A DNA stretch of 64,000 bases, taken from NCBI GenBank assembly GCA_903847585.1, contig CAINEC010000162.1, positions 1-64,000 of the forward strand, given 5' to 3'. A program made the translations under genes and the position numbers. Positions 39,531-58,571 of this stretch are shown piece after piece (the first letter of the stretch is position 1; every line of letters begins with the position of its first letter). The stretch is from an uncultured Bacteroidota bacterium. Its GTDB lineage: Bacteria > Bacteroidota > Bacteroidia > AKYH767-A > OLB10. Under the pieces are notes generated by a model, which was given only the letters and a program-made list of their open reading frames with translations, searched no databases and had not been told where the DNA came from.

Positions 39531-41192
39531 ATGATGCTTCGAAATAACTTCTTTTATTCATTGGTCTGCCTCTTTTTAGGGATTACTTTTTCTTCATTAG
39601 GACAAAATAACAAGCCCGATTTTAGATCGCCGGTGGATATTCCGATTTCACTGGCAGGCAATTTTTGTGAAATCAGACCCAATCATTTTCATTCGGGTAT
39701 CGATATCCGAACAAACGGAAAGGAAGGCTTGCCCATCTTCGCAATTGGTGATGGATATGTTTCAAGAATCAAGGTGAGTCCAACAGGATTTGGAAGAGTC
39801 GTTTATATCAACCATCCCGAAGGATATACCTCCGTTTATGCCCATTTATCTTCTTTCAATTCTCCGTTGGATGCTTTTGTTGACTCCATTCAAAAGGCCA
39901 ACGAATCATACGATATGGAAGAATTTCCCGATGCTAAAAGATTCAAAGTCAAAAAAGGGGATTGCATAGGATTCAGCGGTAACTCTGGTTCGAGTTCATC
40001 GCCACATCTACATTTCGAAATTCGTGATTTGAATTCGGAAGAGCCATTGAATCCGCTGGCATTTTTAAATTATGAAGATTCTATTGCACCAGTTATTGAA
40101 CGGATTAGAATAGTCCATATCAATTTAGATAAAGTTTATCAACCAATAACTGATATCTCAACTTCAGATTATTTAATAACTGTAATCACTGGCATTGATT
40201 ATGGGGATTATTATTTTGAATTAAAAGGAAGTGACAATAGTGGAGATTCGTATATGAACTTTTATTCCATTAACGTAATGACAAATAAAGGCGATACACT
40301 ATTTGATTGTAAGTTCGACCGATTTAATTTCGACGAAACAAGAATGGTAAATTCATTTATTAATTACTCTTCATTAGTAAACGATAAAGAAGAATGGCAA
40401 AGACTTTACAAGCTACCCTCCAACACAGCTACACTATTTAAAAACTGTATTTCGAAACCACTTACCATTTCGGATGATAATGATACAATATATTTTAAAG
40501 TTACTGACTATAGTGGCAATTCAACAGTTGAACAAGTCATACTATACGGATTTAAACAAGAAGAAATAATAGGAGATTATAAAGAATCAATTTGCAGATA
40601 TTACAATGAAAGTTTTACCATTCCTTTTAAATATGGATTCATGAATATCCCTGCTAGTGGAATAGATCAATCACTTTGTTACGAGTTAACCGATTACGAT
40701 ACGCTTCCGGATTCAACAACCTTTTTAATTGGTGATCCGTCTGTCCCTTTAATCAAGAATGCAACGGTGGTGATTCAAAAAAAACTGGGCACTAACTTTT
40801 GGCTTTGCGAACGAAATTGGAAGAATGAATTGACCGGAACCTCCTTCAAGTTAGACAGTGCGAAATACGGTTATCAAACAAGCATTAAAAAAATGGGATG
40901 GTACTCGGTAGAATGCGATAGTGTAGCACCACAACTCATAAAAGTAATATCAGAAAAAGACCCTATCATCAAGGAACAGAAAAACATATTATTAAAAATC
41001 AGCGATGATATTTCAGGAGTTAAAAAAGCCAATGTATTCATTAATGGAAATTTCCTTCCATGCGAATTTGATTTGAAACGTAGCAGCGTTGTGATTAAAG
41101 GAAGTCAACTCAAAAAAGGTGATATCATCCAATTAAAATTAATCGACTATCAAGGAAATACTAATTTAATAGAAAATGTCGATTGGAATTGA
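39531..41192 (+). CDS. Secreted M23-family metallopeptidase (LytM-like)
   Basis: The 553-residue protein has a signal peptide (residues 1-24), then an M23 domain with the zinc ligands in NHFHSGIDI and SPHLHFE and the linking block GRVVYINHPEGYTSVYAHLSSF. The remaining ~350 residues are beta-rich domains, including an Ig-like end with DDISGVKKANVFINGNFLPCEFD. It would cut peptidoglycan cross-links or regulate such enzymes in the periplasm. Two ATG codons are adjacent at the start. Confidence 0.88.
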   Translation: MMLRNNFFYSLVCLFLGITFSSLGQNNKPDFRSPVDIPISLAGNFCEIRPNHFHSGIDIRTNGKEGLPIFAIGDGYVSRIKVSPTGFGRVVYINHPEGYTSVYAHLSSFNSPLDAFVDSIQKANESYDMEEFPDAKRFKVKKGDCIGFSGNSGSSSSPHLHFEIRDLNSEEPLNPLAFLNYEDSIAPVIERIRIVHINLDKVYQPITDISTSDYLITVITGIDYGDYYFELKGSDNSGDSYMNFYSINVMTNKGDTLFDCKFDRFNFDETRMVNSFINYSSLVNDKEEWQRLYKLPSNTATLFKNCISKPLTISDDNDTIYFKVTDYSGNSTVEQVILYGFKQEEIIGDYKESICRYYNESFTIPFKYGFMNIPASGIDQSLCYELTDYDTLPDSTTFLIGDPSVPLIKNATVVIQKKLGTNFWLCERNWKNELTGTSFKLDSAKYGYQTSIKKMGWYSVECDSVAPQLIKVISEKDPIIKEQKNILLKISDDISGVKKANVFINGNFLPCEFDLKRSSVVIKGSQLKKGDIIQLKLIDYQGNTNLIENVDWN

Positions 41193-41212
41193 TAAGGGTC
41201 ATTCGCTTACTA

Positions 41213-41255
41213 TGATGTAAGTCATTTTAAAATGTTATTCGTCGCTGTACTTTTG
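41213..41255 (+). promoter_or_regulatory. REC-Crp type operator and promoter of the candidate sRNA
   Basis: TGATGTAAGTCA (41213-41224, inside ATGAY-N4-GTCA) is followed by the exact -7 box TACTTTTG (41248-41255). Centre-to-centre distance is 33 bp, equivalent to a class II site near -41. The predicted start of transcription is about 41259. Confidence 0.65.
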
Positions 41256-41258
41256 ATT

Positions 41259-41347
41259 TCGAGATGGAGACATCCCAACGTACTAGAATAATAGTACCAT
41301 AGTTTACTGGTTTGGTTAGAGCTGTCGAAGGACAGCTCTACTTTTTT
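41259..41347 (+). ncRNA. Candidate small regulatory RNA under FNR-like control
   Basis: Between an FNR-like promoter and a strong terminator lies an ~89-nt unit with no ORF. It has three hairpins: GATG-GAGA-CATC with a GNRA loop (41263-41274), GTACTA-GAATAA-TAGTAC (41280-41297) and the terminator stem TAGAGCTGTC-GAAG-GACAGCTCTA (41317-41340) followed by T6. A single-stranded, U/G-rich linker (CATAGTTTACTGGTTTGGT) lies between hairpins two and three and could be a pairing region. I do not recognise an Rfam family. The alternative is a long leader or the terminator of the M23 gene. Confidence 0.6.
41317..41347 (+). terminator. Strong intrinsic terminator
   Basis: A perfect 10-bp stem TAGAGCTGTC/GACAGCTCTA with a GAAG tetraloop is followed by CTTTTTT. 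It lies before, not inside, the TSUP gene once that gene is started at ATG 41369. Confidence 0.85.
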
Positions 41348-46825: not shown

Positions 46826-47530
46826 TCACTTACACATCTGATGTGTATTCAGTCTTTCATCCTTGCAACAATCACCATCGCCACTTTTCATGGTACTGCC
46901 TCGATGAATTAAAAACAAAGCTAAGGCTATTGCAATAAACGGAGATAGTTTGTTGATGGATAATTTTACTTTAGGACTAAAAATATTTTGAGATACTGCC
47001 ACTAGGTACATCAATGGTAGGGTGCCTAATCCAAACAATAACATATAGAGCGCGGCATTGGTTATACCTCCATAGCTGATTGCACCTGCCATGGCTAAGT
47101 AAACAAATCCACAAGGTAATATTCCGTTTGCTAGTCCTACAACATACATTGCAGTAAATGATTTCTTCTTGATGTAATTTCCGATAACTGATTTTATCTT
47201 AAAAGACATTTTTACTAAACGTCCATTGACTTTACTCAATAGTTTATCGTTTAAAAACAATACAACCAGGATGATTAATATTCCAGAGAAAATACTCAAA
47301 TCACTTTGCAATCCTTTTAATTGAAAACTAATTCCAATTAATCCTGCTATCACACCCAACAGCATATACATCGTAACACGACCGAGTTGGTACATCAAGC
47401 GACCAAGATAAAAATGTCTTGCATCACCATCAACAACAGGTAATGATAACGCAATTGGTCCGCACATACCAAGGCAATGAAAACTCCCTAAAAATCCGAG
47501 CGACAACGCGCTGATCAGATAATAATTCAT
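46826..47530 (-). CDS. Sulfite exporter TauE/SafE-like (DsbD_2/UreH-type) protein of the cbb3 cluster
   Basis: The 234-residue membrane protein has about six helices, opening with the paired-Cys motif FLGSFHCLGMCGPIALSLP, and a second block ANGILPCGFVYLAMAGAISYGG. This subgroup is regularly found after ccoG/fixH and is thought to help maturation, perhaps copper delivery to CcoN. The C-terminus ends with a Cys/His-rich tail (DGDCCKDERLNTHQMC). It lies 1 bp after fixH in the cco operon. Confidence 0.8.
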   Translation of the reverse strand: MNYYLISALSLGFLGSFHCLGMCGPIALSLPVVDGDARHFYLGRLMYQLGRVTMYMLLGVIAGLIGISFQLKGLQSDLSIFSGILIILVVLFLNDKLLSKVNGRLVKMSFKIKSVIGNYIKKKSFTAMYVVGLANGILPCGFVYLAMAGAISYGGITNAALYMLLFGLGTLPLMYLVAVSQNIFSPKVKLSINKLSPFIAIALALFLIHRGSTMKSGDGDCCKDERLNTHQMCK

Positions 47531-47531
47531 T

Positions 47532-47963
47532 TTACTGCATCATCAATTTTTCTTCTTGCAAATATTCTTTTCCATCACAACTCCATGCAATGGTCAATCG
47601 CCAGTAGCCTCCCGATAATTTATCCGACTGAACCAGCATTTTACCGTTATCGTTTTTGATGTTCATTGTAAAATCCTTTTGCTTATCATTAGGACGATAA
47701 AATGTCAATGTGCCTTTTATGGCACGATTAGCAAATTCAGAAGGAAAAGATAACTCAAGTGATTTGTCATTAACAGAATTACATACTACAGTTGCGGTAG
47801 CGGCATTCTGCATTTTATTATAACGGTCCTGATATTTTACTTCCTGATCGTAATAATTATCAGCAACTAATTCTGTGTTTTGTTGCGTGCATTTGTAAAC
47901 CAATGTCAACATACCAACAACAAACAACACATAAACAAACATTATTTTATATCCCCAATTCAT
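47532..47963 (-). CDS. FixH family protein (cbb3 assembly)
   Basis: The 143-residue protein has one N-terminal membrane anchor (IMFVYVLFVVGMLTLVYKC) and a periplasmic beta-sandwich with ADNYYDQEVKYQDRYNKMQNA, the FixH signature. It supports cbb3 oxidase assembly, acting with CcoG and CcoI. It starts 2 bp after ccoG ends. Confidence 0.88.
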   Translation of the reverse strand: MNWGYKIMFVYVLFVVGMLTLVYKCTQQNTELVADNYYDQEVKYQDRYNKMQNAATATVVCNSVNDKSLELSFPSEFANRAIKGTLTFYRPNDKQKDFTMNIKNDNGKMLVQSDKLSGGYWRLTIAWSCDGKEYLQEEKLMMQ

Positions 47964-47965
47964 AG

Positions 47966-49378
47966 CTATTTTATTTTTACAGGACCAATGAAATTAGTCT
48001 TGATCGTTTCAATTAATTTGTTGCCAGATTTTACTTCTAATACAATAGGCAGTCTTGCATCTACAATTTGATTTTGATTAATCATCACAAAGAATTCTCC
48101 ATCAGCGCTACCTTGACCGTCTAATTTTGTAATCCCATCGCCAACCCATTTCACCGAGCCTGATGGTTGCACCAATTTAATTTCAACGGGCATCTGATCG
48201 AATGTTTTGTTAATCAGATTCACGGTATATAAATTCGAATAGATGCTATCATTTTGTTGTTGGTAGATCATACCAGGAGTACGCAGTATAGTAGATTCCA
48301 CATCGGAACGCATAATTAAAAGTGACAATAGGGTAGTTAGCAAAACGAAGAGCACAAATGAATACGCTTTTATTCTTCCTGTTATTTGAAATTTCGTCCC
48401 TTCAGCAATAGAATTTTCACTTGTATAACGAATTAGACCTTGTGGCTTTTTGATTTTATCCATGATGCCATCACAAGCATCAATACAAGCAGTACAATTT
48501 ACACATTCGAGCTGCGTACCATTACGGATATCGATACCGGTAGGACAAACATTCACACATTGATGACAATCGATGCAATCACCAAATTTAGATTCAGCAG
48601 TCTTTTGCAATTTACCTCTTGGCTCTCCGCGTTTATAATCGTACGCAATAACCACCGAATTTTTATCAAGCAAAACACCTTGTAATCTTCCATAAGGACA
48701 AACAATTAAACAAGCCTGCTCGCGAAAACGCATATACACAGCAAAGAAGACGAATGTAAAAACGAGAATCGCTATTAATCCACCAACGTGATTGAATGGA
48801 TCATCCAAAACAATTTGTTTTAATTCATCGATGCCAATGATGTAAGCAAGAAATGTATTTGCAATGATAAATGAAATCAGAAAAAAGATACTTCCTTTTA
48901 AAATTCGCTTTCTGAATTTTTCGGGAGATGGAGGAGCATTCTTCAATGCCTTTTGTTGCGCTGCATCACCTTCAATCCAGTATTCAATTTTACGAAAGAC
49001 CATTTCCATAAAAATGGTTTGCGGACAAGCCCAACCACACCATAGTCGACCAAACAACGCTGTAAATACAATAATAAAAACAACGAACGTAAGCATCGCC
49101 AACACGAACAAGTAAAAGTCCTGTGGCCAAAATGCAATTCCGAATAAAATAAATTTTCGCTCAACAACATTTAATAACATGAATGGGTGTCCGTTTAATT
49201 TAATAAACGGACCCACAAACATGACTGCTAATAAGAAATAACTAAATAATGTCCTTTTATTATAAAAGCGACCTTTGGGTTTCTTCGGAAAAATCCAATT
49301 ACGGTTACCGTCTTTAGAAATAGTTGAAATACTATCTCTAAAACTATCGGCTTCGTCGTAAATAGCGGGATCCATCAT
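47966..49378 (-). CDS. ccoG: Cytochrome c oxidase accessory protein CcoG
   Basis: CcoG is a membrane ferredoxin-like copper reductase used in cbb3 assembly. The 470-residue protein has about five membrane helices, the GRLWCGWACPQTIFME block, a bacterial ferredoxin module with two 4Fe-4S sets (CIDCHQCVNVCPTG and CVNCTACIDACD) and a C-terminal Ig-like domain. It starts 8 bp after ccoP. Confidence 0.95.
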   Translation of the reverse strand: MMDPAIYDEADSFRDSISTISKDGNRNWIFPKKPKGRFYNKRTLFSYFLLAVMFVGPFIKLNGHPFMLLNVVERKFILFGIAFWPQDFYLFVLAMLTFVVFIIVFTALFGRLWCGWACPQTIFMEMVFRKIEYWIEGDAAQQKALKNAPPSPEKFRKRILKGSIFFLISFIIANTFLAYIIGIDELKQIVLDDPFNHVGGLIAILVFTFVFFAVYMRFREQACLIVCPYGRLQGVLLDKNSVVIAYDYKRGEPRGKLQKTAESKFGDCIDCHQCVNVCPTGIDIRNGTQLECVNCTACIDACDGIMDKIKKPQGLIRYTSENSIAEGTKFQITGRIKAYSFVLFVLLTTLLSLLIMRSDVESTILRTPGMIYQQQNDSIYSNLYTVNLINKTFDQMPVEIKLVQPSGSVKWVGDGITKLDGQGSADGEFFVMINQNQIVDARLPIVLEVKSGNKLIETIKTNFIGPVKIK

Positions 49379-49386
49379 TATAATTA

Positions 49387-50352
49387 TTAGTTAGCTGTAG
49401 TAGTAACTGTAGTTGCTGTTGAGTCAGTAGCAGTAGGAGCAGAGTCATCTACCCAAACATCACCTTGCGCTGGTTTTGGATTAGCAGGATTCGAATTCTG
49501 CATTGACAAAATATAACTTGAAACAGCTTGAATATTCTTAGGTGTTAATTGCGTTTTCCAGCTGATCATTCCTTTTAAAGGAACGCCATTCGTGATTGTT
49601 CTAAAAACATTTTTTATTCCACCACCATGAATCCAATTAGGGTCCGTTAAATTGGGTCCTATGTTACCTTCCAAATTTTGACCGTGACAAGAAGTACAGT
49701 TTTTATTAAAAATTTCTTTTCCTTCACTTAAAACAGTAGCATCTGCAATGAACTTAACATTTTCAGCAGTAACCATGTCCGCCATTTTTTCATTTCTAAT
49801 TCGTTGAGCTTCATCAGCAGCTTGAACAGAAGCAATGTACTCCTGATCTTGACTATAACCTGTTTTGAAAACATGGAAATGAAACACATAAATTACAGCC
49901 CATATAATGGTGAAGTAAAAACCCCATTTCCACCAAGGAGGTAAATTATTATCTAACTCACGAATGCCATCATAGTCATGATGAAGCATGATGTCCTCTT
50001 CCTTTTCAACGGGTACTGCTTGCGTTAAAACGTTACGATCAAAGCGAGACCAAAACGATTCTGTCTGAACAAGCTTTACCGTTTCTGATTTTAACTGCTG
50101 CTCTTTTTGAGGAGCCATTCCTCTTGCAATAACTAGTAACGTTCTTGCCATAACGAAAATGGCAATCAAGAGAATCAGAATAAAAATAGCCAGGTAATAA
50201 AAAGAAGGTTGGTAGAATAGTGGATCAACGGTTTTAAAGTATTGTCCACTGTTCGCTACTGTTGTACTATCTGTTATCGCTTGTGCATGCACTGTTGTAT
50301 TCATAAACATCAGGCCTGCAATAAATCCTATAGAGATGATATGTTTTTTCAT
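49387..50352 (-). CDS. ccoP: cbb3 oxidase subunit CcoP (single-haem form)
   Basis: I use ATG 50352 (MKKHIISIGFIAGLMF); the track adds three codons. The 321-residue protein has an N-terminal signal or helix, a second helix, the FixP_N block (NNLPPWWKWGFYFTIIWAVIYVFHFHVF) and one cytochrome c domain with CTSCHG and Met ligand candidate in GMISW. Proteobacterial CcoP usually carries two haem c groups; only one CxxCH is present here, as usual for Bacteroidota to my knowledge. The end is Thr/Ala-rich. Confidence 0.92.
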   Translation of the reverse strand: MKKHIISIGFIAGLMFMNTTVHAQAITDSTTVANSGQYFKTVDPLFYQPSFYYLAIFILILLIAIFVMARTLLVIARGMAPQKEQQLKSETVKLVQTESFWSRFDRNVLTQAVPVEKEEDIMLHHDYDGIRELDNNLPPWWKWGFYFTIIWAVIYVFHFHVFKTGYSQDQEYIASVQAADEAQRIRNEKMADMVTAENVKFIADATVLSEGKEIFNKNCTSCHGQNLEGNIGPNLTDPNWIHGGGIKNVFRTITNGVPLKGMISWKTQLTPKNIQAVSSYILSMQNSNPANPKPAQGDVWVDDSAPTATDSTATTVTTTAN

Positions 50353-50547: not shown

Positions 50548-52680
50548 TTATTTTGTAGTTGAATTATCAGAAACTTTATTTGCTTTAATGTCGACACCTA
50601 ATCGTTGTAAGTAGGCAATCATTGCTACTAACTCTTTATTTGCATCGATAGGAGCACCACTCTTATTTAAGTCAGCAGCAATTTCATTTGCTTGCTTCAT
50701 CAAATCAGCATTGGCTTGTTGATCATACCCTTTTGTGTAAGGAACACCTAACGTAATCATTGCTCTGATTTTTGCTGGAGTAGAAGCAGTATCTAAATTA
50801 TTTTCTGCAAGAAAAGCATACGGAGGCATGATAGAACCTGGCGACATAGTTCGAGGATCAATCATATGATGATAATGCCATACGTTTTGATATTTTCCTC
50901 CTACACGTAATAAATCTGGACCTGTTCGCTTAGAACCCCATTGGAAAGGATGATCATACACAAACTCTCCAGCTTTAGCATATTCACCATAACGTTCTGT
51001 TTCGTGACGGAACGGACGCACCATTTGCGAGTGACAAGTGTAACAACCTTCACGGATATAAATATCACGACCTTGTAATTCAAGTGGAGTATAAGGCTTC
51101 ACAGATGCAATCGTTGGAATATTTTCTTTAATCATGAATGTTGGAATCATCTCCACTAATCCACCAATTAAAATCAACACCGTTGCAAACAACATCATCT
51201 GAATTGGTCTTCTTTCAATCCAACGATGCCAGTGACCACCTTCATGAACAGGAACGGCTTCTAATGCTGGAGCTTCTGCTGGTTCATTCGCTAATAAATC
51301 GCCCGTCTTCATCGTCATCACTAAATTGTAAACCATCGTTAACGCACCTGCTAAATACAATGTACCACCAACAGCACGTAACTTATACATCGGCATTAAC
51401 TTCGTTACCGTTGCTAAAAAGTTTGGATATTTTAATAATCCATCATCTGTAAATTGTTGCCACATCATGTATTGTTCAAACCCTGCCCAATACATCGGAA
51501 TGGCATAGAATAAAATTCCTAACGTTGCTAACCAGAAGTGATAGCTTGCTAATTTTTTAGAGTATAACTCGGTTTGATAAATGCGAGGGATTAACCAATA
51601 TAAAATACCAAACGTTAACATACCATTCCATCCTAGTCCACCAATGTGCACGTGAGCGATAGTCCAATCTGTAAAGTGAGAAATTGCATTCACTGATTTC
51701 AATGATAACATCGGACCTTCAAATGTTGCCATACCGTAAGCAGTGATTGCAACAACCATAAACTTCAATACAACACTTTCACGAACACGATCCCATGCAC
51801 CACGTAATGTCAACAGTCCGTTAATCATACCACCCCAGCTCGGAGCAATTAACATGATAGAGAAAACAGTTCCTAATGATTGCGCCCAATCAGGTAATGC
51901 AGTATATAATAAGTGATGAGGACCAGCCCAGATGTAAATAAAAATTAAAGCCCAAAAGTGAATGATTGATAATCGATAAGAATACACCGGACGATTAGCA
52001 GCCTTCGGAACGAAATAATACATCAAACCTAAATACGGCGTAGTTAAAAAGAAGGCTACTGCATTATGTCCGTACCACCATTGCACTAACGCATCTTGCA
52101 CACCTGCATATACAGGATAACTCTTTAAAAGACTTACTGGAATTTCAATACTATTTACAATGTGAAGTACTGCAACAGTAACCACCGTTGCAATATAAAA
52201 CCAAATGGCAACATATAGATGTCGCTCGCGACGTTTGATAATAGTACCAAACATATTCACCGCAAATACAACCCAAGTAAGTGTGATCAAGATATCAATC
52301 GGCCATTCTAATTCAGCATATTCTTTACCTGTAGTATGTCCTGTAATTAATGTTAATGCAGCAAGCACAATAATCGATTGCCACATCCAGAAATGAAGCT
52401 TGCCTAACAAGTCACTAAATAATCTCGCTTTCGTTAAACGTTGAAGGGAATAATACAATCCCATAAAAATTCCATTACCTACAAAGGCAAAAATGATTGC
52501 GTTGGTATGTATAGGTCGTACGCGACCAAATGTAACATACTCACCTGCGTTTAAACCAGGAAAAGGAATTTGAAGGGCTGCAATTAAACCCACCAACATT
52601 CCTACAATTCCCCAGATAATTGTCGCAATTGCAAAATTCCTAACAATGCGATTGTCGTAGCTATACTTCTCAATTGTCAT
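50548..52680 (-). CDS. ccoN: Fused cbb3 oxidase subunits I and II (CcoNO)
   Basis: The 710-residue protein combines CcoN and CcoO. Residues about 1-470 are the twelve-helix haem-copper core: RPIHTNAIIFAF (haem ligand), WWYGHNAVAFFLTTPYLG and AGPHHLLYT (CuB ligands), IAHVHIGGLGWNG (haem b/b3 ligands). From about 520 comes the CcoO part with a membrane anchor and one haem c site REGCYTCHSQMVRPF. The enzyme reduces O2 with high affinity and pumps protons. The fusion is usual in Bacteroidota. The start overlaps ccoS by 11 bp. Confidence 0.96.
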   Translation of the reverse strand: MTIEKYSYDNRIVRNFAIATIIWGIVGMLVGLIAALQIPFPGLNAGEYVTFGRVRPIHTNAIIFAFVGNGIFMGLYYSLQRLTKARLFSDLLGKLHFWMWQSIIVLAALTLITGHTTGKEYAELEWPIDILITLTWVVFAVNMFGTIIKRRERHLYVAIWFYIATVVTVAVLHIVNSIEIPVSLLKSYPVYAGVQDALVQWWYGHNAVAFFLTTPYLGLMYYFVPKAANRPVYSYRLSIIHFWALIFIYIWAGPHHLLYTALPDWAQSLGTVFSIMLIAPSWGGMINGLLTLRGAWDRVRESVVLKFMVVAITAYGMATFEGPMLSLKSVNAISHFTDWTIAHVHIGGLGWNGMLTFGILYWLIPRIYQTELYSKKLASYHFWLATLGILFYAIPMYWAGFEQYMMWQQFTDDGLLKYPNFLATVTKLMPMYKLRAVGGTLYLAGALTMVYNLVMTMKTGDLLANEPAEAPALEAVPVHEGGHWHRWIERRPIQMMLFATVLILIGGLVEMIPTFMIKENIPTIASVKPYTPLELQGRDIYIREGCYTCHSQMVRPFRHETERYGEYAKAGEFVYDHPFQWGSKRTGPDLLRVGGKYQNVWHYHHMIDPRTMSPGSIMPPYAFLAENNLDTASTPAKIRAMITLGVPYTKGYDQQANADLMKQANEIAADLNKSGAPIDANKELVAMIAYLQRLGVDIKANKVSDNSTTK

Positions 52681-52852
52681 AATGATTGATTTTTGATTTT
52701 TCGTTTGATGTTATTTCATTATCCATTAATATGCGAACTGCAGGGGAAGTATCATCATCAAATTGCCCTGTTTTTACAGACCAGAAAAATGCAATCAGAA
52801 ATCCGATAGCAACGGTTAAACTGGCAATGATTAAAAGGATGATTACTTTCAT
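52670..52852 (-). CDS. ccoS: cbb3 oxidase assembly protein CcoS
   Basis: The 60-residue protein has one membrane helix (VIILLIIASLTVAIGFLIAFFWSVKTGQFDD) with the CcoS signature FFWSVKTGQFDDD. It is needed for cofactor insertion into cbb3 oxidase. It is first in the cco operon; the predicted leader is only about 5 nt. Confidence 0.92.
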   Translation of the reverse strand: MKVIILLIIASLTVAIGFLIAFFWSVKTGQFDDDTSPAVRILMDNEITSNEKSKINHYDN

Positions 52853-52860
52853 AACGGGAG

Positions 52861-52925
52861 CAAATCTATTTCGAGAGTGGGATTAATTAAATGACCGCTA
52901 TTAGGGTGATTTATGATAATTGTCA
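52861..52925 (-). promoter_or_regulatory. REC-Crp type operator and promoter of the cco operon
   Basis: An operator TGATAATTGTCA (52914-52925, plus-strand reading) lies upstream of an exact -7 box TAGATTTG (minus strand, 52861-52868). The centre-to-centre distance is 55 bp, equivalent to a class I position near -62. The start codon of ccoS follows at 52852. Confidence 0.6.
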
Positions 52926-52927
52926 AC

Positions 52928-55345
52928 CTACTTCGTGAAACCTAATTGACGTGCTTTTATCGAGCTGGCCACTACCGTATATATCACTAAACTGCTCGTA
53001 CTGATAGGCATTAAAATAGCCGCAATTACAGGCGACAAAGTTCCTTGTACGGCAAACCATAATCCCAGAAAATTATACACCAGTGATATGATAAAACTGA
53101 TGATGATAATTCGGTTAGCTGACTTGGCAAGACGAATTAACTTCTCCAATTTTGATAAATTACTTCCAATAATAATAGCATCACATGCAGGAGTAAAGTT
53201 GTTGATGTCGTTTGAAATGGCAATTCCTACATGGCCATGCATTAACGCACCAGCATCATTTAATCCATCACCAACCATCATCGTTTTAAATCCATGTTGA
53301 TTAAGTTCATTGATGTAATTTAATTTATCAATGGGTTTGCAATGAAAGCGCATATGCGTTCCTTCGGGAAGAATTGTACTTAGGTTGATTCGCTCATGCT
53401 CATCATCACCGCTGATCACACCTAATTGAATATTGTGATTTGATAAGTCGGAAGTTAACTCCTTAACACCTTCGCGATATTTATTTTGAATTGCGAAATA
53501 GCCGTATATTTCATTATCAATTCCAATATATACTCGTGTTGACTTTAATGTATCGAGTTGTTTTTTTCCTGTCAGGTATTCTTCACTTCCAATTTTATAG
53601 TGATGTCCGAAAATCATGGCCGTTAATCCTTGACCAGGAAATTCTTCAATATGAATAGATGTATCTGCGAATGCTTTTAATTTCAAATATTTCGATAATA
53701 CAATACTTAATGGATGAGTAGAAGACGATACTATTGTATAGATAGCACGTAAATGAAAATCGCTCAATTCAACACCGACATAATTTATCTGATTAGATTC
53801 AGGCTCTGTTAATGTGCCTGTCTTATCAAATATAACAGTATCAATATCCGCCAACTTTTCAATCACCTGAACATTGCGTAGATAAATTCCTTTCTTACCA
53901 AGCAATCGAATGATATTTCCGAAGGTAAACGGAGCAGATAATGCTAATGCACAAGCACAAGCAATAACCAACACCGCAGTGAAAGCATTAATTGCTCTTG
54001 TAAAATCCTGATGATACCAATAAGCAAATGATGATATAGCAATAACAACAGTTACCAAGACAAACCAACGGCTAATGGTATTCACCATTTTTTGAAAATA
54101 ACTGGTCTGATTAACTTTATCACTTTGTTGATTCCAAAGTTTAGTCAAGTAACTATTAGAGGTAGCCTGATCTACCATCACGTCAATAGGACCATTCAAT
54201 AATTTAGCTCCCGCATAAATCAATTCACCTTTATTGACTTTAACTGGTGTCGATTCTCCAGAAACAAAACTATAATCAATATGAGCCGATTGATTTAAGA
54301 GTTTTACATCCGCAGGAATAATCTCATGATTACGAATCTTCAGACGATCACCTTTAACAACATCATTAACTAAAACAGTTTCTTCTTTAATGCCATTGTA
54401 TCTCGTAACAGCAATAGGGAAGTAGGAGGTATAATCCCTGTTAAAAGAAAGCCATTGATAGGTTTTATCTTGAAAATTTCTTCCAATAAGCATGAAGAAG
54501 ATAAGTCCGGTCATACTATCAAAATAGCCAGGGCCAGTACCAGAAACAATTTCGTACAAGCTTCTTAAAAACATGGCTAAAATACCAATGGCAATAGGCA
54601 CATCAATATTGACAACCTTTTGTCGGAAGCTTCTGAAAGAGTTTATAAAAAATTCACTTGCAGAATAAAAGAAAACCGGCAATGCTAAAACCACAATCAC
54701 ATATCGAAATAATTGTCGGAAGTCCTCAGCGCCAAAAACACCTCCCGATAAATATTCAGGAAAACTCAACAACATAATATTTCCAAAAGCAAATCCCGCT
54801 AAACCGATTTTATAAATCCTTGCATTCGATTTTTTAGCGAACTGATGATTGCTGACTTTATTTAAATTCAATTCTGGCTCGTAACCAATTAAAGTAAGTT
54901 GTTCAACTATATTGCGAAGGGAAGTTGCCGACGAATTAAAAACAATCAATATTTCCTTACTTACAAAATCAACTTGTGATCGTACCACGCCCTTATCGAT
55001 TCTTGAAAAATTCTCTAACAACCAAATACAACTACTACAATGCATATTCGGAATATGGAAACGAATATGAACTTCATTCTTAGATTTAAAACTGATTAAC
55101 TTCTCAATAATTTGCTCTTCCTCTAAAAAAGCAAAGCGATTACCGAGATAACTGTTCTTACGATTTATGCCAGGGTTATCGGAAATAGCGTAATAATTAC
55201 AAAGGTTGTTTTCATTCAGTACTTCATATACTAACTTACAGCCTACGCAACAAAAGTCTTTATCATCAAATTTAACTTTGTCTTCTTCACACTTTTCGTG
55301 ACAATGATAACAATTGGTAACTACTGAAGTATTTGTTAATGACAT
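52928..55345 (-). CDS. ccoI: Copper P1B-type ATPase for cbb3 assembly (CcoI/FixI)
   Basis: The 805-residue protein has an N-terminal Cys-rich metal-binding region (CYHCHEKC...CCVGC), an HMA domain with MHCSSCIWLLENF, about eight helices, the A-domain VSGESTPV, the phosphorylation motif FDKTGTLTE and the hinge VGDGLNDAGAL. It would move copper to the periplasm for the CuB site. The transmembrane metal motif reads CAC instead of the canonical CPC. It has its own operator-promoter and is separated from ccoS by 75 bp. Confidence 0.92.
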   Translation of the reverse strand: MSLTNTSVVTNCYHCHEKCEEDKVKFDDKDFCCVGCKLVYEVLNENNLCNYYAISDNPGINRKNSYLGNRFAFLEEEQIIEKLISFKSKNEVHIRFHIPNMHCSSCIWLLENFSRIDKGVVRSQVDFVSKEILIVFNSSATSLRNIVEQLTLIGYEPELNLNKVSNHQFAKKSNARIYKIGLAGFAFGNIMLLSFPEYLSGGVFGAEDFRQLFRYVIVVLALPVFFYSASEFFINSFRSFRQKVVNIDVPIAIGILAMFLRSLYEIVSGTGPGYFDSMTGLIFFMLIGRNFQDKTYQWLSFNRDYTSYFPIAVTRYNGIKEETVLVNDVVKGDRLKIRNHEIIPADVKLLNQSAHIDYSFVSGESTPVKVNKGELIYAGAKLLNGPIDVMVDQATSNSYLTKLWNQQSDKVNQTSYFQKMVNTISRWFVLVTVVIAISSFAYWYHQDFTRAINAFTAVLVIACACALALSAPFTFGNIIRLLGKKGIYLRNVQVIEKLADIDTVIFDKTGTLTEPESNQINYVGVELSDFHLRAIYTIVSSSTHPLSIVLSKYLKLKAFADTSIHIEEFPGQGLTAMIFGHHYKIGSEEYLTGKKQLDTLKSTRVYIGIDNEIYGYFAIQNKYREGVKELTSDLSNHNIQLGVISGDDEHERINLSTILPEGTHMRFHCKPIDKLNYINELNQHGFKTMMVGDGLNDAGALMHGHVGIAISNDINNFTPACDAIIIGSNLSKLEKLIRLAKSANRIIIISFIISLVYNFLGLWFAVQGTLSPVIAAILMPISTSSLVIYTVVASSIKARQLGFTK

Positions 55346-55364
55346 ATCATTTAAATCTTGAATA

Positions 55365-55407
55365 CAAGATTATTCAATGTATACACCTATACTAATGACA
55401 AATGTCA
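55365..55407 (-). promoter_or_regulatory. REC-Crp type operator and promoter of ccoI
   Basis: TGACAAATGTCA (55396-55407) is a palindrome with 5-bp arms. The minus-strand -7 box TAATCTTG (55365-55372) has one mismatch to TAnnTTTG. The distance is 33 bp, equivalent to about -41. The ATG of ccoI is about 16 nt after the predicted start site. Confidence 0.6.
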
Positions 55408-55472
55408 GTTGCTATTTTGATAGTGGTCACAAAACATTTTTTCCAAAAAGTGGTTTAAATTATATCTATGAA

Positions 55473-55515
55473 TGACGTAGGTCATTTGCAACTCATCTTG
55501 AATAAAGCAATTTTG
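55473..55515 (+). promoter_or_regulatory. REC-Crp type operator and promoter of the 55536 gene
   Basis: TGACGTAGGTCA (55473-55484, within ATGAC-N4-GTCAT) precedes CAATTTTG (55508-55515), one mismatch from TAnnTTTG. The distance is again exactly 33 bp. Confidence 0.6.
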
Positions 55516-55535
55516 CAAATACATAATTGAACAAC

Positions 55536-55937
55536 ATGTTATCCGAAACAAAAGCGTCGAGCTCGCTACACCTTTACATCGATTTAAACTCAAGACTTTC
55601 TGAAATCCAAAGAGAGTTCAATTCTTATTTCCCATTCTTAAAGATTGAATTTTTTAAAGCACCTCATAAAATCGGACAAGGATTAAAGAAAGATCTAATC
55701 ATCAATTCGAATAAATTAGTGAAGGATTGTTCAACTATCAAAAAGGGTGGTGTAATTGAATTTACCAATATCACTCCTGTAAGCGATTTAGAAACGAAAT
55801 TTTTCAAAGACTTTAAATTATCTGTGCAGGTATTTAGAAAGGCAGGTAGGGTATGGTTAGAAACAACTGCAACAGATAGCTGGACCTTAGCGCAACAAAA
55901 TGAAGAAGGCGCTGAATTCTCAACGCCATCTAAATAA
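55536..55937 (+). CDS. Unknown protein under the same control as ccoI
   Basis: I use ATG 55536; the track starts at a TTG that is too close to the -7 box. The 133-residue protein has a mixed alpha/beta pattern (LHLYIDLNSRLSEIQREFNSYFPFLKIEFFKAP, then KLSVQVFRKAGRVWLETTATDSWTLAQQNEEG). It has no signal peptide, membrane helix or Cys. I do not recognise the family. It is divergent from ccoI, with two paired operators between them, and converges with the regulator gene; this implies a cytosolic role in low-oxygen physiology. Confidence 0.65.
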   Translation: MLSETKASSSLHLYIDLNSRLSEIQREFNSYFPFLKIEFFKAPHKIGQGLKKDLIINSNKLVKDCSTIKKGGVIEFTNITPVSDLETKFFKDFKLSVQVFRKAGRVWLETTATDSWTLAQQNEEGAEFSTPSK

Positions 55938-55950
55938 TTTGATCTTCCTT

Positions 55951-57009
55951 TTAAGCTTTTAAATGACGAAGCTTTTCATCATTGATGATTTTAATTTTTC
56001 CGTCTTTAATCTCAATTAACTTTTCTTCTTTAAAATCACTAAGCGTTCTAATCAACGACTCTGTAGCTGTCCCAACAATATTGGCTAAATCTTCACGAGC
56101 GATTGCCATAGCAAAATGAGATGCATCAGTCGTCTTGTACTTATCTTGTAATAAAATCAATGCCTCGGCAGTTCTCTTTCTAACAGAACTGTAAGCCAAT
56201 TCTAATAGACGTTCTTGCTTATCGATAACACCCTTTGTTAAAAAACGAATGAAGTTCTTCGTAACGGCATGGTTGCTATAAACCAGATTGAAAAATTCTT
56301 CCTTAGGAATAAAAATCACTTCTGACTCTTCTAATGTTTCAGCACTTTCAATATAAGGCTTTTCTTCTAACAGTGATACATATCCGAAGAAATCACCTTC
56401 TTTCAACAAATCAGTGATCAACTCTTTACCATACTCATGCGTCTTAGTAATTTTTACTTTACCTGACTTCACATAATAAATTCCGTTAGGGTAGTGGTGC
56501 TCCTGATAAATCTTTTCTTTCTTTTTATAATGATTCACTTTTTTGCCATCCAGGAATTTCTTCAAGGCTGCATCACCAGCCACATCACTGATGAAATGAC
56601 TTAGTCCATCAAAGTCAGGTTGATAATCTTTCTTAAGTGCATCAGCTCTTTTCAAACGACTTTCAATAGCATTTAATAGCTCCGTCTTATCAAAAGGTTT
56701 GGTGATATAATCATCGGCACCTAAATCCATTCCTTTACGCATATCGCTACGTTCTGCTTTTGCTGTCAGGAAGATAAATGGAACTGAGTTTAAATCGGTA
56801 TCCTTGCTCAGTAAATGTAAAACTCCATAGCCATCTAAACCTGGCATCATGATATCACAGATAATCAAATCTGGTTTTTCCTTACGAGCCATTTCAACAC
56901 CATCTTTTCCATCAGGTGCTGTACAAACTGTATAATTCGCCAGCTCTAAAATCTCAGCTGTATTTTCTCTTACATCCAGATTGTCTTCAATTAATAAAAT
57001 CTTTTTCAT
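55951..57009 (-). CDS. Response regulator fused to a CRP/FNR-type DNA-binding module
   Basis: The 352-residue protein has a receiver domain at 1-125 (acidic pocket E8/D9, phospho-acceptor D52 in ICDIMMPG, FLTAKAE, TKPFD). A cNMP-binding-type beta-roll follows at about 140-260 (NGIYYVKSGKVKI, LLKEGDFFGYVSLLEE), and a Crp-type winged helix-turn-helix at 265-345 with recognition helix TATESLIRTL. There is no N-terminal Cys cluster, so it cannot carry the FNR iron-sulfur cluster. It should act downstream of the adjacent kinase and bind TGAY-N4-GTCA sites. It follows the kinase by 4 bp. Confidence 0.88.
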   Translation of the reverse strand: MKKILLIEDNLDVRENTAEILELANYTVCTAPDGKDGVEMARKEKPDLIICDIMMPGLDGYGVLHLLSKDTDLNSVPFIFLTAKAERSDMRKGMDLGADDYITKPFDKTELLNAIESRLKRADALKKDYQPDFDGLSHFISDVAGDAALKKFLDGKKVNHYKKKEKIYQEHHYPNGIYYVKSGKVKITKTHEYGKELITDLLKEGDFFGYVSLLEEKPYIESAETLEESEVIFIPKEEFFNLVYSNHAVTKNFIRFLTKGVIDKQERLLELAYSSVRKRTAEALILLQDKYKTTDASHFAMAIAREDLANIVGTATESLIRTLSDFKEEKLIEIKDGKIKIINDEKLRHLKA

Positions 57010-57013
57010 AGCA

Positions 57014-58255
57014 TTAATTTATTTGATTCGGAAAAGTGATCTCGATCCTTGTTCCTTCGTTTAGTTTACTAGTTAAATGTAAATGACCTTTCATAATGTC
57101 AACATAGTTGCCCACAATATGTAACCCTAATCCTGTACCTTGAATATTAAATGCATTTTTTCCTCTATAGAAACGTTCAAACAAATGCTTCAAATCTTCC
57201 TCGCTAATTCCAATTCCCTGATCTTGCACCACCATTTTTATTTCATTGGAATTCACATCTGCATCCAATGTTATAGACTTGCCTTCTGATGAAAATTTAA
57301 TAGCATTACTTAAAAGATTAAAAAGAATATTCTTGATTAGCTTAGCATCAAGAAACACCAAATTATCACCATGATAATTAATAACTATTTCCTGTCCTGC
57401 TTTTGTATTCTGACGCATATCACTCGCAATTTCATTCATCAGAATATTCAAATCGAACATACTCATATCTGCATGAATCTTTCCTTCTTCTAATTTACTG
57501 ATAGATAGAAAATCACTTAAGATATCATTCAGGTTATTAACTGAAGACTGAATTCGTTTGATATGCTTTTGCTTTTTCTCTTCTTGCTCGGGAGTTTTAT
57601 ATTCTGAAATCAAAACAGCAGAAGAAAGGATAGTGGTGAGTGGTGTACGAAACTCATGCGATGCCATTGAAATAAATCGCGACTTTAAATCATTCAGGTC
57701 TTTTTCTTTTTCGAGGGCCATACTTAATTCTGATCTCGACTTCTCTAATTCCAAAATTGCTTCTTGCAAAACGCTGGTACGATCAGAAACCTTACGTTCT
57801 AAATCTTCATTCGACTTTTGCAAGGTAAGTGCAATCTGCTCAAGCTCTAATTGTTTTTCCCTTACAGAAGCTTCAATCTTCTTTCTAACAGAAATATCAA
57901 TCAAAAAGGCAATGATGTATTTGCGATCATCCTTAAAAATAGGACTCAAGCTAATCTCTATTGGGAACAAGGTGCCATCTTTTCTCAATGCATGTAAATC
58001 TAAACCTAATCCCATCGGACGAGCATGTGGCTTATCGATATACGATTTACGATGATGTTCATGATGTCCTTTGATGTTCTTAGGTACTAATACATCAATC
58101 GATTCATTTAATAATTCATTCGACTCATATCCGAACATCTTACATGCTGCTGGATTCATCAATTGAATCAATCCACTTTCATTGGAAATAATAATCCCTT
58201 CAGTAGCATGATTGAACAGGGCATCGAGTAACTCGACTTTCTCAAAATTCTGCAT
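57014..58255 (-). CDS. PAS-domain sensor histidine kinase
   Basis: The 413-residue protein has a PAS domain at about 8-125 (FNHATEGIIISNESGLIQLMN, RKDGTLFPIEIS, IAFLIDISVRKK), a coiled-coil linker at about 127-190, a HisKA domain with the phospho-acceptor H200 in SMASHEFRTP, and a HATPase with NLLSNAIKFS, DQGIGI, LFERFYRGK and GTGLGLHIV. It has no membrane segment and is cytosolic, so it should sense an intracellular signal. A His-rich segment (HHEHHR, 64-69) sits where FixL-type PAS domains hold the haem-ligand His. It precedes its partner regulator. Confidence 0.92.
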   Translation of the reverse strand: MQNFEKVELLDALFNHATEGIIISNESGLIQLMNPAACKMFGYESNELLNESIDVLVPKNIKGHHEHHRKSYIDKPHARPMGLGLDLHALRKDGTLFPIEISLSPIFKDDRKYIIAFLIDISVRKKIEASVREKQLELEQIALTLQKSNEDLERKVSDRTSVLQEAILELEKSRSELSMALEKEKDLNDLKSRFISMASHEFRTPLTTILSSAVLISEYKTPEQEEKKQKHIKRIQSSVNNLNDILSDFLSISKLEEGKIHADMSMFDLNILMNEIASDMRQNTKAGQEIVINYHGDNLVFLDAKLIKNILFNLLSNAIKFSSEGKSITLDADVNSNEIKMVVQDQGIGISEEDLKHLFERFYRGKNAFNIQGTGLGLHIVGNYVDIMKGHLHLTSKLNEGTRIEITFPNQIN

Positions 58256-58304
58256 TTGACTAAAATAAGTAAGCTCTAAAAATAAACATTTTTAATGCGC
58301 TCTA

Positions 58305-58484
58305 TTATTTATTGCTGCTATATCCTGCTAAATAATACAACGGACAAAATCCAGAAGCACCTGTTACAAACGGGATTAAACCCGAAATTGCCCAAAATGA
58401 ATTATGATAGATAAAAAAAGACGCGACAGTTACTCCAGCAACTAAGCGAATAACTCGTTCATTAAAATTTTCATTGGTTACCAT
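58305..58484 (-). CDS. DUF2892 (YgaP-like) small membrane protein
   Basis: This 59-residue gene is under the ORF-track cutoff. The protein reads MVTNENFNERVIRLVAG, has two short hydrophobic segments and ends with SGFCPLYYLAGYSSNK. The N-x-x-x-R-x-I-R-L start and the GFCPLY motif are the DUF2892 signature. The gene is first in the operon with the kinase and the REC-Crp regulator, under an operator of that regulator. Its function is not known; the Cys suggests a sulfur or redox link. Confidence 0.85.
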   Translation of the reverse strand: MVTNENFNERVIRLVAGVTVASFFIYHNSFWAISGLIPFVTGASGFCPLYYLAGYSSNK

Positions 58485-58506
58485 AGTGATATTTATTTGT
58501 TGAATC

Positions 58507-58571
58507 CAAAAGTAGATGCTCCATCCAACGAAATAAATTACGCTAATCAGTACACGTTATGATAAATGTCA
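58507..58571 (-). promoter_or_regulatory. REC-Crp type operator and promoter of the DUF2892-kinase-regulator operon
   Basis: TGATAAATGTCA (58560-58571) lies 55 bp, centre to centre, from an exact minus-strand -7 box TACTTTTG (58507-58514). This is the same spacing as in the cco operon. The start codon of the DUF2892 gene follows at 58484. Confidence 0.6.

Follow-up and report, generated by a model that had tools for sequence, protein, structure and literature searches.

In Flavobacterium psychrophilum, oxygen limitation induces the cbb3 oxidase (PMC9723704), and how low oxygen is sensed for cbb3 induction in Bacteroidota seems little described. The locus considered here, in a 64,000-nucleotide stretch of DNA from an uncultured Bacteroidota bacterium (contig CAINEC010000162.1, positions 1 to 64,000; hereafter the window), raises the question of which protein, responding to which signal, switches on the cbb3 genes. 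The genome that contains the window is a draft of 3.0 Mb in 203 contigs, 99% complete. The answer that we consider probable is a two-protein low-oxygen switch, in which the iron–sulfur sensor of an FNR-type activator has been replaced by a receiver domain. A cytosolic kinase would autophosphorylate, most likely when the heme of its PAS domain is free of oxygen, and would then phosphorylate Asp52 of a receiver–CRP (REC-CRP) protein; the phosphorylated dimer would bind pairs of MTGAY-N4-RTCAK sites centred near -41.5 and -63.5 and activate the cco operon, ccoI, a gene at 55536 and the operon that encodes it, and probably a small RNA as well. Within this scheme, phosphotransfer, direct binding, the direction of the response, and heme and oxygen as the signal are elements that we infer from sequence.

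The regulator operon, on the reverse strand, is led by a gene for a small membrane protein (58305–58484), called DUF2892-like on our own reading of its sequence and with an orthologue at the same position in close relatives; it is followed by the kinase (57014–58255) and the REC-CRP regulator (55951–57009). Convergent with the regulator on the forward strand is a gene at 55536–55937 for a conserved 133-aa protein of unassigned function, which gave no match in Pfam or NCBIfam, nor in a fold search of the PDB with its model (pLDDT 88; best E 0.18); its homologues, found in 23 of 80 loci, are linked to the regulator. Beyond it, again on the reverse strand, come ccoI, identified by domain and family matches as the Cu-transporting P-type ATPase for cbb3 assembly (52928–55345), ccoS, the first gene of the cco operon (52670–52852; homologues precede ccoNO in 21 loci), a fused ccoNO encoding oxidase subunits I and II (50548–52680; NF011053, 1267 bits), and ccoP, ccoG, ccoH and a TSUP-like gene, the remainder of the operon (46826–50352), in an order kept in relatives. 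A preceding sequence-only reading of this DNA had described a cytosolic PAS kinase and a REC-CRP regulator adjoining the cbb3 genes and had held the regulator not to be FNR itself; Pfam domains and gene coordinates agree with the first statement, and the protein sequence with the second.

The regulator comprises Response_reg (residues 4–116), cNMP_binding (160–243) and HTH_Crp_2 (279–350) domains, with D52 as the predicted phospho-acceptor and TATESLIR as the recognition helix. The receiver active site (acidic pair E8 and D9, D52, K104) is invariant in 21 orthologues, as are E317, I320 and R321. The N-terminal Cys cluster of FNR is absent on inspection of the sequence, because the CRP module contains no cysteine at all, and Tyr210 and Glu221 stand at the positions of Glu72 and Arg82 of the CRP cAMP pocket in an alignment made by eye rather than from structures. 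An AlphaFold model (pLDDT 78) contains the receiver, a beta-roll, a long dimer helix and a winged helix, and in the PDB it matches CRP and FNR structures best. Most of 60 relatives encode the fusion at full length, as do 145 of 296 genomes of the class; in a tree of 68 rows the fusions form one clade (support 100/99), which indicates a single origin. In about 74 of 80 named GTDB Bacteroidota loci the gene immediately upstream encodes the PAS kinase, and more than 30 of the 80 have cco genes within 10 kb, so that the same fusion does stand beside cco genes in other Bacteroidota, where it had been proposed that one should look. In the open-access literature we found nothing relevant on a receiver–CRP fusion in Bacteroidota; domain censuses may list the architecture.

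What the switch responds to depends on the kinase, which has PAS, HisKA and HATPase_c domains in Pfam and no apparent membrane span. The closest structures to its PAS domain are 10jx (an entry for a multi-sensor kinase), DosP and FixL; all PDB matches with E up to 1e-6 are DosP or FixL except the best, 10jx. His65 aligns with a histidine of FixL (H200 in Bradyrhizobium FixL) and DosP that we take to be their heme ligand. Few PAS residues are as well conserved: 68 of 75 aligned kinases have a His here, and the genome's 12 other PAS domains all lack it. From this conservation and the alignment with FixL and DosP, heme binding by the PAS domain is likely, and oxygen as its ligand, in FixL-type sensing, is plausible. 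The distal Arg220 with which FixL binds oxygen corresponds to Leu85 here and to R, M, L, T or I in other orthologues; oxygen may therefore be bound in another way, or NO, CO or some other molecule may be the ligand. That variability would suit a kinase whose PAS domain serves the same regulator and sites but reads another correlate of low oxygen, such as redox state, a quinone or NO, and not oxygen through heme. The same can be said of the fusion's presence in 31 genomes without a ccoNO match, from which its role would be wider than cbb3. Given how consistently His65 is kept in these kinases and how uniformly the significant structural matches, bar the best, fall on DosP and FixL, we regard such a signal as possible but rather unlikely. 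The HisKA motif HEFRT presumably endows the kinase with both kinase and phosphatase activity.

The candidate operators are the second component of the argument. The motif ATGAY-N4-GTCA, to which the sequence-only reading drew attention, is indeed enriched in the window (six occurrences, at five places, where 1.2 would be expected; 100 shuffles never reached six). It is better written MTGAY-N4-RTCAK, and most of the sites form tandem pairs with a 22-bp offset. The sites listed at the time for cco, ccoI, the 55536 gene and the regulator operon all stand; overlooked were partners offset by 22 bp (55418–55429, perfect; 52892–52903 and 58538–58549, one mismatch each) and a further pair at 41190 and 41213. 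On the reverse strand, the cco operon has a predicted distal site, TGACAATTATCA (52914–52925), 45 bp before the -7 box TAGATTTG (52861–52868), and 22 bp from it a degenerate proximal site, TAATAGCGGTCA (52892–52903), 23 bp before the same box. The predicted proximal site of ccoI, TGACATTTGTCA (55396–55407, reverse strand), precedes its -7 box TAATCTTG (55365–55372) by 23 bp, with the distal site TGACCACTATCA (55418–55429) 22 bp away. Upstream of the 55536 gene, on the forward strand, TGACGTAGGTCA (55473–55484) lies 23 bp before CAATTTTG (55508–55515). The regulator operon, on the reverse strand, repeats the arrangement of cco, with a distal site TGACATTTATCA (58560–58571) 45 bp and a degenerate proximal site TGATTAGCGTAA (58538–58549) 23 bp before the -7 box TACTTTTG (58507–58514). 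Single class I sites at 52913 and 58559 were considered and rejected, each being part of a tandem pair with a degenerate proximal member.

Conservation of the motif at orthologous promoters, whose absence the sequence-only reading had named among its possible refutations, is what we find. The pattern TGAYNNNNRTCA, with expectations taken from shuffling, occurs upstream of ccoS in 16 of 20 loci (0.35 in shuffles), of ccoI in 13 of 17 (0.65), of the 55536 gene in 12 of 20 (0.35) and of the kinase in 29 of 54 (1.6). There is no clear excess before the REC-CRP gene itself (3 of 79 against 1.0 expected), nor over shuffles before ccoH and the TSUP gene. The base flanking the orthologous sites is A or C, with T in only 5%, and so differs from that of the FNR/FixK consensus, TTGAT-N4-ATCAA. 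Of 93 sites, 31 have a second site at exactly 22 bp when agreement at 7 or 8 of 8 positions is required (background 0.8%, z 10.9). Of 203 orthologous sites, 64 are followed after exactly 23 bp, and 85 after exactly 45 bp, by the box TAnnTTTG, which is the -7 element of Bacteroidota sigma-A (PMC9723704), with matches counted at 5 or 6 of 6 positions; the background is 0.9%, and about 2 sites would be expected. These gaps fit two dimers predicted to be centred near -41.5 and -63.5, a placement typical of an activator. The idea that the 22-bp tandem reflects contact between the receivers of neighbouring dimers was dropped, the tandem being equally common with the fusion (17 of 39) and without it (21 of 49); such operators were seen at related loci L134, L143, L144 and others, as frequently in genomes that lack the fusion.

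The placement bears on how phosphorylation would be used. The direction of a switch is not readable from sequence, and the fusion might bind its sites without phosphorylation, the receiver tuning only dimerisation or stability, or might even be released by it. We think either arrangement improbable, given receiver active-site residues that are all invariant, a kinase gene directly upstream in nearly all loci, and sites at distances where an activator would be expected.

Is the fusion, then, the protein that reads these sites? The motif is not in itself diagnostic of the fusion and was rejected as its signature, because cbb3 genomes that lack the fusion and have a Cys-cluster FNR carry the same sites: among cbb3 genomes the motif is present in 42 of the 49 that lack the fusion and in 37 of the 39 that have it. 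A standalone CRP-type protein about 236 aa long is encoded in most of the fusion-less genomes, and its gene often lies near the cco genes. Nearly all of those we read have FNR-type cysteines (an N-terminal C-x2-C and a Cys near 110), that of locus L214 lacking the CxxC, and the recognition helix GTATE[ST]xIR is common to the fusion and the standalone Bacteroidota FNR. Among 183 cbb3 genomes, 31 have both regulators, 83 the fusion only, 57 FNR only and 12 neither (odds ratio 0.08, p 1.4e-13), with FNR assigned from its score against our alignment A3 (E below 1e-69), so that single genomes may be misassigned. In nine families fusion-only genomes occur alongside FNR-only ones, and shuffling within families never gave as few doubles as observed in 20,000 trials. 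Thus the fusion and the Cys-cluster FNR tend to exclude each other in cbb3 genomes, also within families. Correctly positioned cco sites are found in 21 of 23 fusion-only genomes, 34 of 45 FNR-only genomes, 11 of 16 with both and 1 of 4 with neither. Since fusion genomes devoid of FNR keep exactly spaced sites in 21 of 23 cco promoters, the fusion is likely the reader of the sites in genomes like that of the window, as the sequence-only reading had supposed; the case for the binding protein rests on this exclusion and on the shared recognition helix.

Two other readers of the sites have to be weighed against the fusion. One is the only other CRP-type regulator in the genome above the Pfam cut-off, a 209-aa protein encoded on contig C193 that has no N-terminal Cys cluster. 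Its helix also contains E-x-x-x-R; it reads SSREVISR, however, and not the TATExxIR that accompanies the sites in FNR and fusion genomes. Its gene is far from cco, just upstream of a run of OsmC, rhodanese and thioredoxin genes, and it falls outside the FNR and REC groups of the tree, though on a long branch. We consider it very unlikely to be the reader. The other is a Cys-cluster FNR that went undetected in a missing part of this draft, the fusion then doing something else. Draft status in 203 contigs leaves room for such a gene, and 31 cbb3 genomes do have both regulators; but the draft is 99% complete, no standalone FNR appears for the six genus-mates among the matches listed, and 82 further cbb3 genomes likewise contain the fusion and no FNR, with the sites kept in cco promoters where the fusion is the only regulator of the two. 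This too seems highly improbable, and we retain the fusion as the likely reader.

The system has relatives in function elsewhere. Functionally it corresponds to FixL-FixJ-FixK of rhizobia and Caulobacterales (PMC4999443), with no transcription step in between: there, and in our reading here, a two-component system with a PAS kinase that has the heme-ligand His acts through a CRP/FNR-type activator devoid of an iron–sulfur cluster on the cbb3 genes. The sequence-only reading had pointed to this functional likeness, with the functions of FixJ and FixK apparently fused; a fusion of the two by descent is not supported, and they are analogues. One fused regulator stands in place of two; FixJ has a LuxR-type HTH output, in contrast to the cNMP_binding and HTH_Crp_2 domains found here; FixK is a standalone protein made under FixJ, whereas here the receiver is fused and the operon has its own MTGAY-N4-RTCAK pair; and the helix of the fusion is that of Bacteroidota FNR. 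Because neither the FixJ output domain nor the distal Arg of FixL, which is not conserved in this kinase, is found, we do not count the system as a member of FixLJ-K. With the standalone Bacteroidota FNR the fusion shares the CRP fold, a near-identical helix, the MTGAY-N4-RTCAK sites and the geometry of the cco promoter; FNR senses through its own Cys cluster (C-x2-C ... C), in place of which the fusion has a receiver and a partner kinase. The regulator is best described as an FNR-type activator whose iron–sulfur input has been replaced by phosphorylation. In Rhizobium leguminosarum, hFixL-FxkR-FixK (PMC7888657) likewise sets an oxygen-sensing kinase and a response regulator above FixK and fixNOQP, but FxkR induces transcription of fixK and there is no receiver–CRP fusion. 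NmpRSTU of Myxococcus xanthus (PMC11841059) also controls cbb3 from a heme kinase through phosphorylation, but with a protoglobin sensor, a phosphorelay and an NtrC-like regulator.

The existing sites of FnrN in Caulobacterales passed to FixLJ-FixK when these proteins replaced it (PMC4999443), and the present system would represent the same evolutionary step. We lean slightly towards a broader proposal, that the iron–sulfur FNR and the heme kinase with REC-CRP have been swapped repeatedly across Bacteroidota while the operators stayed fixed, with phosphorylation acting directly on a CRP-family dimer and an oxygen-responsive small RNA among the targets. If the two-protein switch works as proposed, a widespread Bacteroidota group senses low oxygen for cbb3 induction by phosphorylation of a CRP-family protein. 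Constant operators with exchangeable inputs (iron–sulfur FNR or kinase–receiver) offer a clean test of regulator replacement without rewiring.

The pair overlooked earlier marks the probable small RNA. On the forward strand, sites TGATAAGGGTCA (41190–41201) and TGATGTAAGTCA (41213–41224) form its predicted promoter, the second lying 23 bp before a perfect -7 box, again TACTTTTG (41248–41255). The transcript of about 87 nt (41260–41346) would have two hairpins, an unpaired core CATAGTTTACTGGTTTGG and a terminator before a TSUP gene; the segment has a folding z-score of -3.2 and gave no match in Rfam. A counterpart with its own site, -7 box and terminator exists in three of six genus-mates. That of G001 is 84% identical over the matched part, and its terminator stem has changed yet is still paired; those of G003 and G005 have the core CATAGTTT[AG]C[AT]GGTTTGG, a terminator and a site of their own at gap 45. 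Predicted folds for the window and G001 leave the core unpaired; in the minimum-energy fold of G003 it is partly paired. The segment may be an independent small RNA or a leader of the TSUP gene.

The 22-bp pairs, together with the exact spacing to the -7 box, provide a practical criterion for identifying members of the regulon. A genome-wide pattern search ranks three tandem sites above all others, those at the promoters of ccoI, cco and the regulator; no 22-bp pair but that of ccoI is perfect, and pairs with one mismatch occur only at the cco and regulator operons. The remaining 22-bp pairs have two mismatches each, in about the number given by the backwards control. Elsewhere in the genome (C20:42815–42857), a gene that we read as DUF983-like is preceded by TGATAATTGTCA, followed after 23 bp by a -7-like box, and is a possible further member of the regulon. 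Another site with a -7-like box lies at the end of the CRP-type gene on contig C193 (25146–25188), before the OsmC, rhodanese and thioredoxin run.
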